Shown: in pieces, positions 25,882-33,275 of the stretch
Layout of the letters: each line of letters starts with the position of its first letter
Numbering within the stretch: position 1 is the first letter of the stretch
From: an uncultured Granulosicoccaceae bacterium
GTDB lineage: Bacteria > Pseudomonadota > Gammaproteobacteria > Granulosicoccales > Granulosicoccaceae
DNA length: 40,745 nt
Reading direction: 5' to 3'
Assembly: GCA_937923565.1 (NCBI GenBank)
Contig: CALDTX010000072.1
Coordinates: 1-40,745 of the forward strand
Made by a program: the position numbers and the translations under genes
The notes under the pieces: generated by a model
What the model was told of the DNA's origin: nothing
What the model saw: the letters and a program-made list of their open reading frames with translations, nothing else
The model's database searches: none

Positions 25882-25922
25882 ACTCAGTGTTACGATACTT
25901 AAAACCAAGACAATAACATTTG

Positions 25923-26996
25923 ATGGGCATTTTCAGTTTTCTAAAAAAGCAAAAGGCTGACCGGGCTGGTGCCGCCAAAGCGGTTGAGTCCGGCACAAGT
26001 GATACACCCGCTGTAGCGGCTAACAGCGCCAACAGCGAAACAGCCACCGGTGCAAACAGCGAAACTATCAGCGCCGCCAAGCCATTGCAAAGTAAGCTCG
26101 GGCGCACACGTGGGCGCTTCAGGGACAACCTGCTCGGGCTATTCAGAAGCTCCAAGCCCATCGATGCAGACTTACTCGAAGAGCTTGAGAGCCAACTGAT
26201 CATGGCCGATCTCGGCGTTTCCGCAACGCAGAAAATCATCACCTCGCTGGAAGCGCAAGCAAAAGCTGCAAAAATTACCGACGCACAAGCGTTGCAGGAT
26301 TTACTGCACGCAGAACTTACCAGCCTACTGCGCGACGTAGAAAAACCGCTGGAAATTCCGGATCAAAGCACCCCCTTCGTTATTTTGGTGGTCGGTGTAA
26401 ATGGTTCAGGCAAAACCACCACCATTGGCAAGCTGGCCAAACAACTTCAGGACGGTGGCAAATCAGTCATGTTGGCAGCAGGCGACACCTTCAGAGCAGC
26501 TGCCATCGAACAACTGCAAACCTGGGGTGAGCGAAATCAAGTGCCGGTGATTGCACAGGAAATGGGGTCCGATTCTGCGTCGGTTATATTCGATGCACTG
26601 CAGTCGGCTACCGCTCGTGGCATTGATGTCCTTATTGCCGATACCGCCGGGCGGTTACATACTCAGGCCGGCTTAATGGATGAGCTGCGTAAAGTTAAAC
26701 GGGTACTGGGCAAGTTGGACGAATCTGCACCACACGAAACGCTCATTGTGCTCGATGGAGGAACCGGACAAAACGCGCTGAGTCAGGCGGAAGAGTTCAA
26801 TGAAGCCATGGAGCTCGACGGATTGATCGTCACCAAGCTCGATGGCACCGCCAAAGGTGGCGTCGTTTTCGCCATTGCGGAAAAAACCGGCCTGCCCATT
26901 CGCTTCATCGGTGTTGGCGAACAAGTAGCCGACCTTGAAGTTTTCGAAGCCGAGCGCTTCGTTAATGCATTGATCGAAAAAGAGGATGTGGCTTGA
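25923..26996 (+). CDS. ftsY: Signal recognition particle receptor FtsY
   Basis: SRP GTPase motifs GVNGSGKTTTIGKLA, AAGDTFRAAAIEQL, ADTAGRLHTQ, TKLDGTAKGG. Short Ala/Ser-rich N-terminal A domain. Confidence 0.97.
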   Translation: MGIFSFLKKQKADRAGAAKAVESGTSDTPAVAANSANSETATGANSETISAAKPLQSKLGRTRGRFRDNLLGLFRSSKPIDADLLEELESQLIMADLGVSATQKIITSLEAQAKAAKITDAQALQDLLHAELTSLLRDVEKPLEIPDQSTPFVILVVGVNGSGKTTTIGKLAKQLQDGGKSVMLAAGDTFRAAAIEQLQTWGERNQVPVIAQEMGSDSASVIFDALQSATARGIDVLIADTAGRLHTQAGLMDELRKVKRVLGKLDESAPHETLIVLDGGTGQNALSQAEEFNEAMELDGLIVTKLDGTAKGGVVFAIAEKTGLPIRFIGVGEQVADLEVFEAERFVNALIEKEDVA

Positions 26997-27769
26997 TCCG
27001 TTTTGAAAATGTAAGCCTGGAATACACGCCGGGGCGCTTCGCTCTGCACGATGTTAGTTTCAGCCAGCCAGCCGGTGCTTTCACGTTTTTAACCGGACAC
27101 TCAGGTGCTGGAAAATCTTCTTTGTTAAAGCTGATCGCCCGATTGGAAAAACCCACCGCTGGGTTTATCAGCATCGACACAATCGATTACGACACACTAA
27201 AGCCCCGGCACGAACCGCTGCTACGACAGCAAATGGGCATTGTATTTCAGGACAACCAGCTACTTAATGACCGCTCGGTGTTCGACAATGTGGCGTTGCC
27301 GTTGATTATTGGAGGCTACCGATACAACGACATAAAAAAACGCGTGGCGGCTGCATTAGAACGCGTCGGTTTGGCCAGCAAAGCCTTTGAACTCCCCATC
27401 CGACTATCGGGTGGGGAGCAACAAAGAGTGGGTATTGCCCGAGCCGTTGTCGCCAAACCCAAAGTGCTACTGGCCGATGAACCCACGGGTAATCTTGACG
27501 CGCAAATCAGTGCTGAGATTATGCAGCTACTGATGCAGTTCAGTGCATCCGGCGTCACCGTTCTGGTAGCTACTCACGATCAAGGCTTATTGGAAACGTT
27601 CGACTTTCCTCAGCTCACGCTGCACGGTGGCAAACTGGTAGACATCCATAACAGCTCACAAGCCACGGCCCACACACAAAATACATGGCAAGAACAGCCA
27701 TCGTCCCAACCAGCCGCCAGAGAGTCCCGCATCAAACGACGTCAAACGAGCAGCCGCCATGGCGAATAG
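26993..27769 (+). CDS. ftsE: Cell-division ATP-binding protein FtsE
   Basis: MIRFENVSLEYTPGRFALHDVSF, Walker A GHSGAGKSS, signature LSGGEQQRVGIARA, directly between ftsY and ftsX. Confidence 0.96.
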   Translation: MIRFENVSLEYTPGRFALHDVSFSQPAGAFTFLTGHSGAGKSSLLKLIARLEKPTAGFISIDTIDYDTLKPRHEPLLRQQMGIVFQDNQLLNDRSVFDNVALPLIIGGYRYNDIKKRVAAALERVGLASKAFELPIRLSGGEQQRVGIARAVVAKPKVLLADEPTGNLDAQISAEIMQLLMQFSASGVTVLVATHDQGLLETFDFPQLTLHGGKLVDIHNSSQATAHTQNTWQEQPSSQPAARESRIKRRQTSSRHGE

Positions 27770-28745
27770 ACGCACATCTGAAACCGCCTTAACTAATGCT
27801 TCTTTGGCCGCCGGACCAAAATGGACCTACACACACCGCGGTTACGCTTTAGCCCAAAGTTTTCGGCAGCTGCGACAACGAAAGTTTGCAAGCTTCATAA
27901 CGCTGATGGTATTCGGTATTAGCCTTGCACTTCCGGCCATTATTCTGTTCAGCGCTGGCTCTCTGGCAAAACTTGGCAATCACAATATCGAGCAGGAAAG
28001 CCTCACTGTTTACTTGTCAATGCAGGTTAACGACCTGGATGGCGCGTCCTTAGCCCAGCAACTACTGCTCAGAGAAGGTATCGACCGCACTAGCTATGTA
28101 TCGCGTGATGAGGCTTTGGCGATGTTTAAAGAACAATCCGATATCGGCGATGCATTAGCGGCCTTGGGCAATAACCCGCTGCCAGGTGCCATCATTGTTT
28201 ATCCCGATGTCGACATGCTGGGCGCTGTAGGCTTAAAACAACTGGCCAATTCGCTGGCAATGTCACCCAGCATCGATCGCGTGCAGTTCGATTTTCGCTG
28301 GGTGAAACGCCTACAGGCCGTTTTATCGCTGGCACGGCTAGTGGGCTGGGTACTGGCCGGTTTTCTTACGTTGAGTGCCTTACTGGTTATCGGGAATACG
28401 ATTCGACTGGAACTCCTGCGAAAACAAACAGAATTGGATGTATCGCGCCTGTTGGGCGCTAAACGCAGCTTTTTGGTTCGTCCCCTGGTGTATACCGGAG
28501 CGCTTTACGGCTTTCTGGGCGGCCTGGTTGCTTGTGTGATTGCGTTAATCACCATTAGCTGGATAAAAACGCCGGCCGATCAGCTTTCAGGCCTTTATCA
28601 GAGCGCATTTCAGCTCGAAATGCCAACTGCATCACAGTGTTTTACTGTACTGCTGATAGCCACTTGTCTCGGCGTTTTAGGCTCAATTGTCAGTTTGGCG
28701 CGTCCGTCAAACCATTTGTTACCTTTTGGTACAAAACCCGTTTAG
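27759..28745 (+). CDS. ftsX: Cell-division permease-like protein FtsX
   Basis: RQLRQRKFASFITLMVFGISLALPA...YVSRDEALAMFKEQS...LGNNPLPGAIIV; ftsE neighbour. Confidence 0.96.
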   Translation: MANRRTSETALTNASLAAGPKWTYTHRGYALAQSFRQLRQRKFASFITLMVFGISLALPAIILFSAGSLAKLGNHNIEQESLTVYLSMQVNDLDGASLAQQLLLREGIDRTSYVSRDEALAMFKEQSDIGDALAALGNNPLPGAIIVYPDVDMLGAVGLKQLANSLAMSPSIDRVQFDFRWVKRLQAVLSLARLVGWVLAGFLTLSALLVIGNTIRLELLRKQTELDVSRLLGAKRSFLVRPLVYTGALYGFLGGLVACVIALITISWIKTPADQLSGLYQSAFQLEMPTASQCFTVLLIATCLGVLGSIVSLARPSNHLLPFGTKPV

Positions 28746-28840
28746 CTACTCTAAGTCACTGAATAATATATATTTTCATCCATTTCTTTCCAATAATTGC
28801 TCTTAAAACAGGTTAAATTCGAGCGGAACTTGGCCGATTA

Positions 28841-28867
28841 TTAGCACTCTAAGTCCTCGAGTGCTAA
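28841..28867. promoter_or_regulatory. CIRCE operator (HrcA-binding site) upstream of rpoH
   Basis: TTAGCACTC TAAGTCCTC GAGTGCTAA: perfect 9-bp inverted repeat with 9-nt spacer, identical to the CIRCE consensus arms. 37 bp separate its end from the rpoH start codon. Confidence 0.93.
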
Positions 28868-28904
28868 AATTGCTTTATCAGGAACAACTTTGGGAGATAC
28901 CAGC

Positions 28905-29774
28905 ATGAGTAACGCCCTTACTACAAACAAATCCACAATGGCCTTACCCGCCGTTGCTGACGATCTAAACGGATACTTATCCAAAATCTCGACCATTTCT
29001 TTATTGTCAAAAGAAGAAGAAAGAGAGTTGGGACGACGCTTACGCGATCACGAAGATATCGATGCAGCTCGCGACTTGGTTATGTCACAGCTCCGCTTCG
29101 TTGTGCATATTGCCCGCACCTACAAAGGCTATGGTTTACCACTAGCTGACTTAGTGCAAGAAGGCAACATTGGCTTAATGAAAGCGGTAAAACGATTCGA
29201 TCCAGAACTAAACGTTCGATTGATCTCCTTCGCGGTACATTGGATTCGCGCCGAGATCCACGAATATGTCATTCGCAACTGGCGCATCGTGAAAGTCGCT
29301 ACAACGAAAGCGCAACGCAAATTGTTCTTTAAGTTGCGTAGCGCGAAAAAAGAGCTGAACTGGTTTAGTCCAGACGAAGTGCAAGCGGTTGCCGATGACT
29401 TAGGTGTTGATCCACAGGTTGTTGTGGAAATGGAATCGCGAATGCATGGCCACGACAGTGCCTTTGATGCGCCTGTTGGACGCAGCGAAGACCAACGTGC
29501 GCTAGCGCCTGCTGATCTGCTGCACACCGACAACAACGATCCGTTATCGGTTGTTGAGTCGGCTGATGTTAAAAACCAGGCATTAGAAGGTTTAGCATCT
29601 GGCATGGATATTCTGGACGAGCGTAGTCGTACTATTTTGGAACGACGTTGGTTGCAAGACGACAAATCAACCTTGCATGAACTGGCCGACGAATACGACG
29701 TTTCAGCTGAACGTATAAGACAAATTGAAAAAGCTGCAATGAAGAAGCTTAAAGCGCATTTACTGGCTGCATAG
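28905..29774 (+). CDS. rpoH: Heat-shock sigma factor RpoH (sigma-32)
   Basis: LADLVQEGNIGLMKAVKRFDPELNVRLISFAVHWIRAEIHEYVIRNWRIVKVATTKAQRKLFFKLRS contains the RpoH box. GGGAG RBS at 28892-28896. Confidence 0.98.
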   Translation: MSNALTTNKSTMALPAVADDLNGYLSKISTISLLSKEEERELGRRLRDHEDIDAARDLVMSQLRFVVHIARTYKGYGLPLADLVQEGNIGLMKAVKRFDPELNVRLISFAVHWIRAEIHEYVIRNWRIVKVATTKAQRKLFFKLRSAKKELNWFSPDEVQAVADDLGVDPQVVVEMESRMHGHDSAFDAPVGRSEDQRALAPADLLHTDNNDPLSVVESADVKNQALEGLASGMDILDERSRTILERRWLQDDKSTLHELADEYDVSAERIRQIEKAAMKKLKAHLLAA

Positions 29775-30842: not shown

Positions 30843-33275
30843 ATGGATTTCATGAAAACAGGCAAGCAAACTGCGCACACCAGCTTGCTGCAGAGCATAT
30901 TGCTTTTAGGCATGCTTACCGGTAGCCATACAGCGATCGCTTCTCCACCAAGCCAACCAACGCAGCTAGCCGCAGAACGATCAACAAGCGATGTTTCGTT
31001 AAGCTGGGCAGCGTCTTCCGACAACATTGGCGTTGCCGGCTACAACGTCTACCGCAACGATGCTTATCTAACAACTGTGTCAGCGACGAACTACACAGAC
31101 ACGGTTAGCAACGAACAAACCTACAGCTATTACATTGTGGCTTTCGATACCCCGGCAGCAGGAGAGACTCGCCTTTTTTCAAGCCGCTCTAACCTTATAG
31201 AAGTTGTGCCTGCTAGTGATAACAACGGCTCCGATAATAATAACAATGGCCCAATTCCAACCGCGCCAACACAGCTAACTGCCAACGGATCTGTCGATCA
31301 AGGCAGCATTACTTTAAGCTGGCAAGCTGCAACAGATGATGAAGCGGTCACCGGATACAACGTTTATAAAAACAATCAGTATTTAACTACAGTTTCATCG
31401 CTTAGCCTCACAGACAACGCCGTCGAACCCAACACGACTTACCAGTACTATCTGGTTGCATTCGATGAACCGCGTAACTTCTCAAACCGTTCGGAAGAAA
31501 TTAGCGCTACGTTGAGTAGCAACGATAATAACGGAGATAACAACGGCGACAATAACGAAAACGGTATTGACAACAACGCGCCGGATACCCAAGCACCTGC
31601 CCGCGTCACCGGTTTAAATGCAGGTGAAATTTCGCGCGACAACGTCGAGCTGTTTTGGACGGAAGCTTCAGATGATCGTGCAGTTGAAGGTTACAATGTT
31701 TACCGCGATGGCAACTACCTGGACACTGTATTTACCAACGCTTACCAAGATAGCTTCCCAGATAATGTTGACGATCTTAGCTACCAAATTGTGGCCTTCG
31801 ATGCAGCCAAAAATTTTAGCGCCCGATCCGCCAGCCTACGCGTATCACTGCGTGACAACGTTGGCCGACCACCGGTTTTGAAAGACCCGTTTGCAGCAGC
31901 GATTCCAAGCCCGTCACCATCAGACCCGTTTGGTGTGCTATTGGAAATTGACGACGAAGTTGCTATTGAAGGTGCGGCGCCTACGAAACCAAAAAATTTA
32001 CGCGCAGAGCTGGTATCAAACGATTGGGCTGAAATAAATTGGGCGCCTTCTAACGATGACAATCGCGTAGTGCAATACCGCATATACCGAAGCGACGGCG
32101 TCATCTATAAAATCAACAACGTGGAGACCGAAGCCGATAGCAATGTACAAAGTGAACTGGATCGCTACTGGCGTACCACCTCGTTCGTTGATTGCAATTA
32201 CACACGATTTTTCGACCGCTACTTTGAATGCAGTGTTACAACGCCAAAGCCTGGGCAATCACTCAGCTATGAAGTCACCGCTGTTGATAATGAAGGTCAG
32301 GAGTCTGAACGATCAAACTCGATCACCATCGACTTTCATTTAGAAGAAAATGCACCCATTCCTTACTACGACGATTTTTATAAAAACGGCGATGATCGGT
32401 TTGTACAAGAACACGATTTAAGTCGGGTTCAGTATTTTATCGACGACTATACGCAAGTATTCGAAGAAGAATTTAATGGCGACAGCATTGATGCCAACCG
32501 CTGGAATACCGGACTTACCTGGGGTGACAATCGCATTATCAATGGAGAGCAGCAGTACTTCGTGAATACGCTATCTGACCCAAACTTCGGCTACGACCCG
32601 TTTAAACTCACCGGCTCATCTCTCATTATCGAAGCGATACCCACGCCTACTGAGTTAGTCGACTCTTTGCCCCCAGTATGCGACGAAGCAGATCCATTCG
32701 GCTTTGAACGCTGCGCGTTTCTTTCAGGTGCGTTGTCGAGTCATGATAGGTTCGGAATAACGTATGGCTATGTTGAAGGCCGTATAAAAGCCAGTACCGC
32801 GGTTGGTGCTTTATCGAGTTTCTATTTGTACCATCGTTATCCCGGCACCGGCATTAACTATCACGCACCGGAAATTGACATCCTGGAATACTTGGGCGAA
32901 AACCCGTTTGGCCGTGAAGATGCATTTCAAACTTATCACTATGCCAACAGCACAGACAATTCAATTAACTCAGCGCCAACCATGTTTTACACCGACCCGT
33001 CCGGGGCTAACTTCGGTGATGATTTCCATACTTACGGTGTGCTGTGGGAACCGCAACTGGTTATTTGGTATATCGACGGTAAAGAAATAAAACGCATCAC
33101 TGGACCACAGGTTGGACGCCAACAAATGAATATTGTGGCGTATCTGGTCGCCGGCAGTGCCTGGGCACCTACGCCCGACATCAATAGCGATATATTTCCA
33201 TTGCAAATGGAAATTGATTACATAAAGGCGTACCAGCGACCACCATTTAACACTAATGGTTTGTACCCCGAATGA
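30843..33275 (+). CDS. Secreted multi-FN3 glycoside hydrolase family 16 protein
   Basis: Signal peptide. About four FN3-like repeats (GYNVYRN..., GYNVYKN..., GYNVYRDG..., YRIYRSDG...) joined by Asn/Asp/Gly-rich linkers. C-terminal GH16 domain with catalytic EIDILE. Confidence 0.9.
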   Translation: MDFMKTGKQTAHTSLLQSILLLGMLTGSHTAIASPPSQPTQLAAERSTSDVSLSWAASSDNIGVAGYNVYRNDAYLTTVSATNYTDTVSNEQTYSYYIVAFDTPAAGETRLFSSRSNLIEVVPASDNNGSDNNNNGPIPTAPTQLTANGSVDQGSITLSWQAATDDEAVTGYNVYKNNQYLTTVSSLSLTDNAVEPNTTYQYYLVAFDEPRNFSNRSEEISATLSSNDNNGDNNGDNNENGIDNNAPDTQAPARVTGLNAGEISRDNVELFWTEASDDRAVEGYNVYRDGNYLDTVFTNAYQDSFPDNVDDLSYQIVAFDAAKNFSARSASLRVSLRDNVGRPPVLKDPFAAAIPSPSPSDPFGVLLEIDDEVAIEGAAPTKPKNLRAELVSNDWAEINWAPSNDDNRVVQYRIYRSDGVIYKINNVETEADSNVQSELDRYWRTTSFVDCNYTRFFDRYFECSVTTPKPGQSLSYEVTAVDNEGQESERSNSITIDFHLEENAPIPYYDDFYKNGDDRFVQEHDLSRVQYFIDDYTQVFEEEFNGDSIDANRWNTGLTWGDNRIINGEQQYFVNTLSDPNFGYDPFKLTGSSLIIEAIPTPTELVDSLPPVCDEADPFGFERCAFLSGALSSHDRFGITYGYVEGRIKASTAVGALSSFYLYHRYPGTGINYHAPEIDILEYLGENPFGREDAFQTYHYANSTDNSINSAPTMFYTDPSGANFGDDFHTYGVLWEPQLVIWYIDGKEIKRITGPQVGRQQMNIVAYLVAGSAWAPTPDINSDIFPLQMEIDYIKAYQRPPFNTNGLYPE

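Follow-up and report, generated by a model that had tools for sequence, protein, structure and literature searches.

A perfect CIRCE operator nested with a sigma-E type promoter upstream of rpoH, and the predicted control of this gene by HrcA, in a Granulosicoccaceae bacterium and other Proteobacteria

The gene for the heat-shock sigma factor, rpoH, of an uncultured Granulosicoccaceae bacterium is preceded by a perfect CIRCE inverted repeat, which is overlapped by sequences matching a sigma-E type promoter and by a putative sigma-70 promoter. The DNA analysed, hereafter the window, is a stretch of 40,745 nucleotides. The elements themselves, their conservation and fixed geometry, the association with hrcA and the presence of rpoE were directly observed. 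We propose, with a probability of about 0.83, that HrcA represses rpoH by occluding the nested sigma-E and sigma-70 promoters, in a feed-forward loop with groESL that also receives an envelope-stress input. The features concerned are as follows.

25920-26996, ftsY, and 26993-27769, ftsE, both 5′ of ftsX (profile matches above cut-off)
27759-28745, + strand, ftsX, the upstream neighbour of rpoH (profile match above cut-off)
28825-28831, + strand, sigma-E type -35 element GGAACTT, its GAAC being found at a fixed place in 25 of 25 genus loci
28841-28867, + strand, CIRCE operator (predicted HrcA site), TTAGCACTC-N9-GAGTGCTAA, both arms perfect
28841-28846, + strand, putative sigma-70 -35 element TTAGCA, within the left arm of CIRCE and weak alone
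28848-28852, + strand, sigma-E type -10 element TCTAA, spanning the junction between the CIRCE left arm and the spacer
28865-28870, + strand, putative sigma-70 -10 element TAAAAT, formed by the last TAA of CIRCE and AAT, with a spacing of 18 nt
28892-28896, + strand, Shine-Dalgarno GGGAG of rpoH, read from the sequence
28905-29774, + strand, rpoH, sigma-32, 289 aa (TIGR02392, 388 bits, cut-off 323.1)

CIRCE is the operator of HrcA, known to control the groESL and dnaK operons. Positions 28841-28867 of the window read TTAGCACTC TAAGTCCTC GAGTGCTAA, with 0 mismatches to CIRCE by pattern matching, and no second match was found in the window even when up to 3 mismatches were allowed (0.01 expected from shuffles). 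The operator lies between the end of ftsX (28745) and the rpoH ATG (28905), 37 nt before the latter. The initial annotation had reported this perfect CIRCE, 37 bp 5′ of the ATG, together with the TAAAAT box and TTAGCA 18 nt upstream of it, and was exact as to coordinates, spacing and sequence.

Gene order in the window is ftsY-ftsE-ftsX-rpoH, with ftsX, ftsE and ftsY matching TIGR00439, TIGR02673 and TIGR00064, all above cut-off in the profile search. Another start for rpoH, the TTG at 28890 given in the list of open reading frames, is unlikely, because GGGAG fits the ATG at 28905 and an ATGAGTA start is conserved in relatives. The initial annotation had suggested that a short leader would leave less room for an enteric-style thermosensor 5′ of the start, but the enteric rpoH thermosensor resides mostly within the coding region anyway. 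A fold of the rpoH start region of the window was no better than shuffles (z = −0.15; one fold of 293 nt). Further downstream, an ORF of 810 aa (30843-33275) has glucanase-type (beta-glycanase) and CbhB-like matches, unrelated to CIRCE. One genome of the same genus encodes a second RpoH-like protein, 46% identical, at a locus devoid of CIRCE (L111, G020:C77:8513-9322).

The initial annotation had called for a search of the genome for hrcA and other CIRCE copies, and for an alignment of the ftsX-rpoH regions of relatives. The genome, a draft of 3.2 Mb that is about 75% complete, encodes HrcA (PF01628, 210 bits, profile search) and contains two exact CIRCEs, that of rpoH and a second 5′ of groESL (reversed-pattern control, 0). 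Further copies could be present in the missing part of the draft; the more complete genomes of the family also hold two. Exactly two were found per genome in 7 of 7 family genomes at 2 mismatches or less, and none with the reversed pattern, their placement before rpoH and groESL being determined by BLAST in six relatives and from the sequence in the genome of the window. Among relatives, the inverted repeat before rpoH was kept at each of the 43 loci of the genus and family for which the upstream sequence was usable. At a locus from the other genera of the family, which ends at a contig edge, the right arm alone is visible. The window site thus combines an inverted repeat without mismatches, an hrcA gene in the same genome, a position 5′ of a heat-shock gene and conservation among relatives, which supports its assignment as an HrcA operator on rpoH, with binding and repression predicted.

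The GGAACTT and TCTAA elements are 16 nt apart, an exact match to the sigma-E (ECF02) consensus that is conserved in the family. The genome also encodes RpoE (TIGR02939, 311 bits for a cut-off of 236, profile search). Before this rpoE gene itself, a search for a sigma-E autoregulatory promoter gave a weak match at best, which was not used as evidence. Across Proteobacteria, CIRCE was found at 42 of 80 rpoH loci, and these were compared to a control set of 36 groES CIRCEs from the same genomes. With related genomes treated as independent in the p-values, GAAC was found 14-16 nt before CIRCE at 22 of the 42 rpoH loci and none of the 36 groES CIRCEs (p = 4×10−8), and a CIRCE spacer starting with TnA at 18 of 42 versus 0 of 36 (p = 2×10−6); the -35 and -10 elements moreover co-occurred, TnA being present in 14 of the 22 rpoH loci with GAAC versus 4 of the 20 without (p = 0.005). 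The CIRCE of groES begins right after a promoter of the CTTGAAA...CCCTATTA type, in a fixed geometry unlike that of rpoH (L119-L154). The exact composite sigma-E/CIRCE pattern was detected in 67 of 369 genomes of the class, at one site each (reversed control, 0), and all 30 sites inspected were directly 5′ of rpoH. Overlap with sigma-E is not universal at CIRCE-rpoH loci, since GAAC is missing at the nested place in about half of the wide set (20 of 42). Many genomes devoid of hrcA have a sigma-E-like promoter before rpoH, the operator being absent. One locus labelled Verrucomicrobia (L050) has a proteobacterial rpoH with CIRCE and the sigma-E box; its contig is probably misassigned.

A second promoter, TTAGCA-N18-TAAAAT, of the sigma-70 type, is likely rather than shown to lie over CIRCE, because its -35 is inseparable from the operator. 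NAT directly follows CIRCE at 35 of 42 rpoH loci versus 1 of 36 groES loci (p = 5×10−14, related genomes being again treated as independent). In the wide rpoH loci, this tail completes TAANAT 18 nt after TTAGCA or TTGGCA, irrespective of the sigma-E -35 (18 of 22 loci with GAAC, 17 of 20 without). NAT as an extension of the operator was considered and rejected, as no mirrored ATN precedes the left arm and groES CIRCEs occur without NAT. The TTAGCA hexamer is a poor match to sigma-70 and indistinguishable from operator sequence; not being independent of the HrcA constraint, it is weak evidence by itself. The suggestion of the initial annotation that the operator overlaps a promoter therefore gains comparative support as far as TAAAAT is concerned, but was incomplete, the sigma-E type promoter having been overlooked. 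Of the overlapping promoters, the latter is the more diagnostic, its use in the cell being predicted from sequence.

It could be argued that HrcA and the sigma-70 promoter alone matter, and that the GGAACTT/TCTAA match is a coincidence made up mostly of the CIRCE arm and chance spacer bases. CIRCE itself does supply the TC of the -10, and most of the 20 wide loci lacking GAAC (17) keep TAANAT. GGAACTT nevertheless lies outside CIRCE, yet at one fixed distance in the family, and GAAC recurs at 22 of 42 distant loci, paired with the spacer TnA, and at 0 groES CIRCEs. We consider a coincidence unlikely.

Anchoring the 43 genus and family loci on CIRCE gave the consensus gGAACTt-gccg-TTAGCACTCtna-GAGTGCTAA-aAT. 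Information content was 1.63 bits per column for the GGAACTT box, 1.98 for the CIRCE arms and 1.58 for the three bases after CIRCE, and fell to 0.18 upstream and 0.20 downstream, meaning that conservation is confined to gGAACTt, CIRCE and aAT. These values bear on the possibility that HrcA at CIRCE is a roadblock, stopping transcription initiated farther upstream (ftsX or the 5′ part of the intergenic region), with no promoter overlap. CIRCEs within transcribed leaders are known elsewhere in bacteria, but here the 60 nt upstream are otherwise unconserved, while promoter-like boxes are conserved in the CIRCE register, and a roadblock appears very improbable.

Among the 50 genomes sampled, hrcA was detected in all 21 that have CIRCE at rpoH, versus 5 of the 29 that lack it. 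That CIRCE at rpoH is a relic out of use by HrcA is scarcely credible: hrcA-less genomes have rpoH without CIRCE and manage, but every member of the family preserves the arms despite a variable spacer and variable flanks, and the presence of CIRCE tracks hrcA.

Several observations were made on individual lineages. Xanthomonas (L010), one of the five hrcA-positive genomes without CIRCE at rpoH, has an altered operator in that position, likewise preceded by GGAACTT. A symmetric variant, TTAGCAGTC-N9-GACTGCTAA, degenerate to varying degree, was found before rpoH in Luteimonas, Lysobacteraceae, a MAG and Xanthomonas (L009, 1931-1957; L047, 1948-1974; L077, 1937-1963; L010, near 1949). In the three variant-operator genomes examined, the sequence of the HrcA helix region is GS[QK]TL...RNIL, as opposed to GSRTL...RNVM in four genomes that have the canonical operator or belong to other lineages; as judged from the sequences, this difference suggests a co-evolved change in recognition. 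Pseudoalteromonas luteoviolacea (L024, 1887-1913; L160; L157) has one CIRCE in its genome, at rpoH, and none before groES. Its HrcA is very divergent (46.6 bits), the gene being located beside nadK- and grpE-like genes, and HrcA may control rpoH alone in this species. A few strings suggestive of CIRCE relics were seen in hrcA-less enterics, such as CACTCTAA in Pantoea and Dickeya; we do not claim that they are relics.

Returning to occlusion by HrcA, the sigma-E -10 and the sigma-70-like -35 and -10 overlap CIRCE, so that HrcA bound there would block both promoters by physically excluding RNA polymerase. Bacillus HrcA needs GroEL to stay active. We infer a similar titration by GroEL at rpoH, leading to heat induction: once misfolded protein engages GroEL, HrcA would be released and rpoH and groESL would be opened together, after which RpoH would add to groESL transcription. 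The other CIRCE of the genome is that of groESL, which in relatives has a sigma-32-like promoter of the CTTGAAA/CCCTAT type just before CIRCE, and the circuit would therefore be a coherent feed-forward loop, groESL being repressed by HrcA directly and via rpoH. Under envelope stress, a larger share of rpoH transcription would come from sigma-E. The initial annotation had proposed a cascade from HrcA to RpoH. Its first part, HrcA over rpoH, is supported by the presence of hrcA and the conserved repeat, but a simple cascade misses sigma-E. Because the more diagnostic of the overlapping promoters is of the sigma-E type, the gene is probably controlled by HrcA together with sigma-E.

Compared to HrcA and CIRCE at groESL and dnaK operons, the window has an identical operator, an hrcA gene and a second CIRCE at groESL in the genome, but its target is the heat-shock sigma factor, and the operator lies across promoters of the sigma-E and sigma-70-like types. 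The guess that CIRCE-rpoH links had already been predicted by comparative genomics was right: one was proposed in 2004 for Geobacter sulfurreducens (Rodionov et al., PMC545781). As in the window, a perfect CIRCE precedes rpoH in that species (position -51) and further copies lie at groESL and hrcA-grpE-dnaKJ, but it is a deltaproteobacterium, and an overlapping sigma-E promoter was not described (PMC545781). The Geobacteraceae locus of our set (L081) differs from the window in lacking a GAAC box at this nested position.

The P3 promoter of E. coli rpoH is transcribed by sigma-E. Bordetella SigE transcribes its rpoH gene (fam) in vitro (PMC3490749), and sigma-E of Vibrio alginolyticus binds the rpoH promoter as seen by ChIP (PMC4890791). 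The window resembles these three cases in having a promoter of the GGAACTT-N16-TCTnA type upstream of rpoH. By contrast, hrcA and CIRCE are both absent from the enteric and Vibrio cases sampled, and in a Bordetella-labelled locus (L062) CIRCE is present, GAAC being absent at the nested place. No description of the nested CIRCE/sigma-E architecture at rpoH was found in the literature searched. A related survey of beta- and gammaproteobacteria by Permina and Gelfand (2004, pmid 15153770), outside this search, may already list CIRCE-rpoH in the group. What is new is the nested architecture and its wide recurrence, CIRCE-rpoH itself having been predicted in Geobacter sulfurreducens.

The textbook view of sigma-32 control comes from E. 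coli, in which regulation acts chiefly on translation and protein stability and less on rpoH transcription. Because the arrangement recurs in many beta- and gammaproteobacteria, our comparison suggests that much of this group, unlike E. coli, gates rpoH at transcription. A tentative extension, to which we give slightly less than even odds, is that the HrcA-gated sigma-E promoter is the old rpoH arrangement in beta- and gammaproteobacteria, the E. coli pattern, a sigma-E promoter with no operator, having arisen when hrcA was lost. In lineages keeping hrcA, the HrcA regulon could then be as small as groESL and rpoH, or rpoH alone. If HrcA gates rpoH in much of the beta- and gammaproteobacteria, the two textbook heat-shock systems, HrcA repression and sigma-32 activation, would be connected serially in addition to acting in parallel, and envelope stress would feed into the same promoter.
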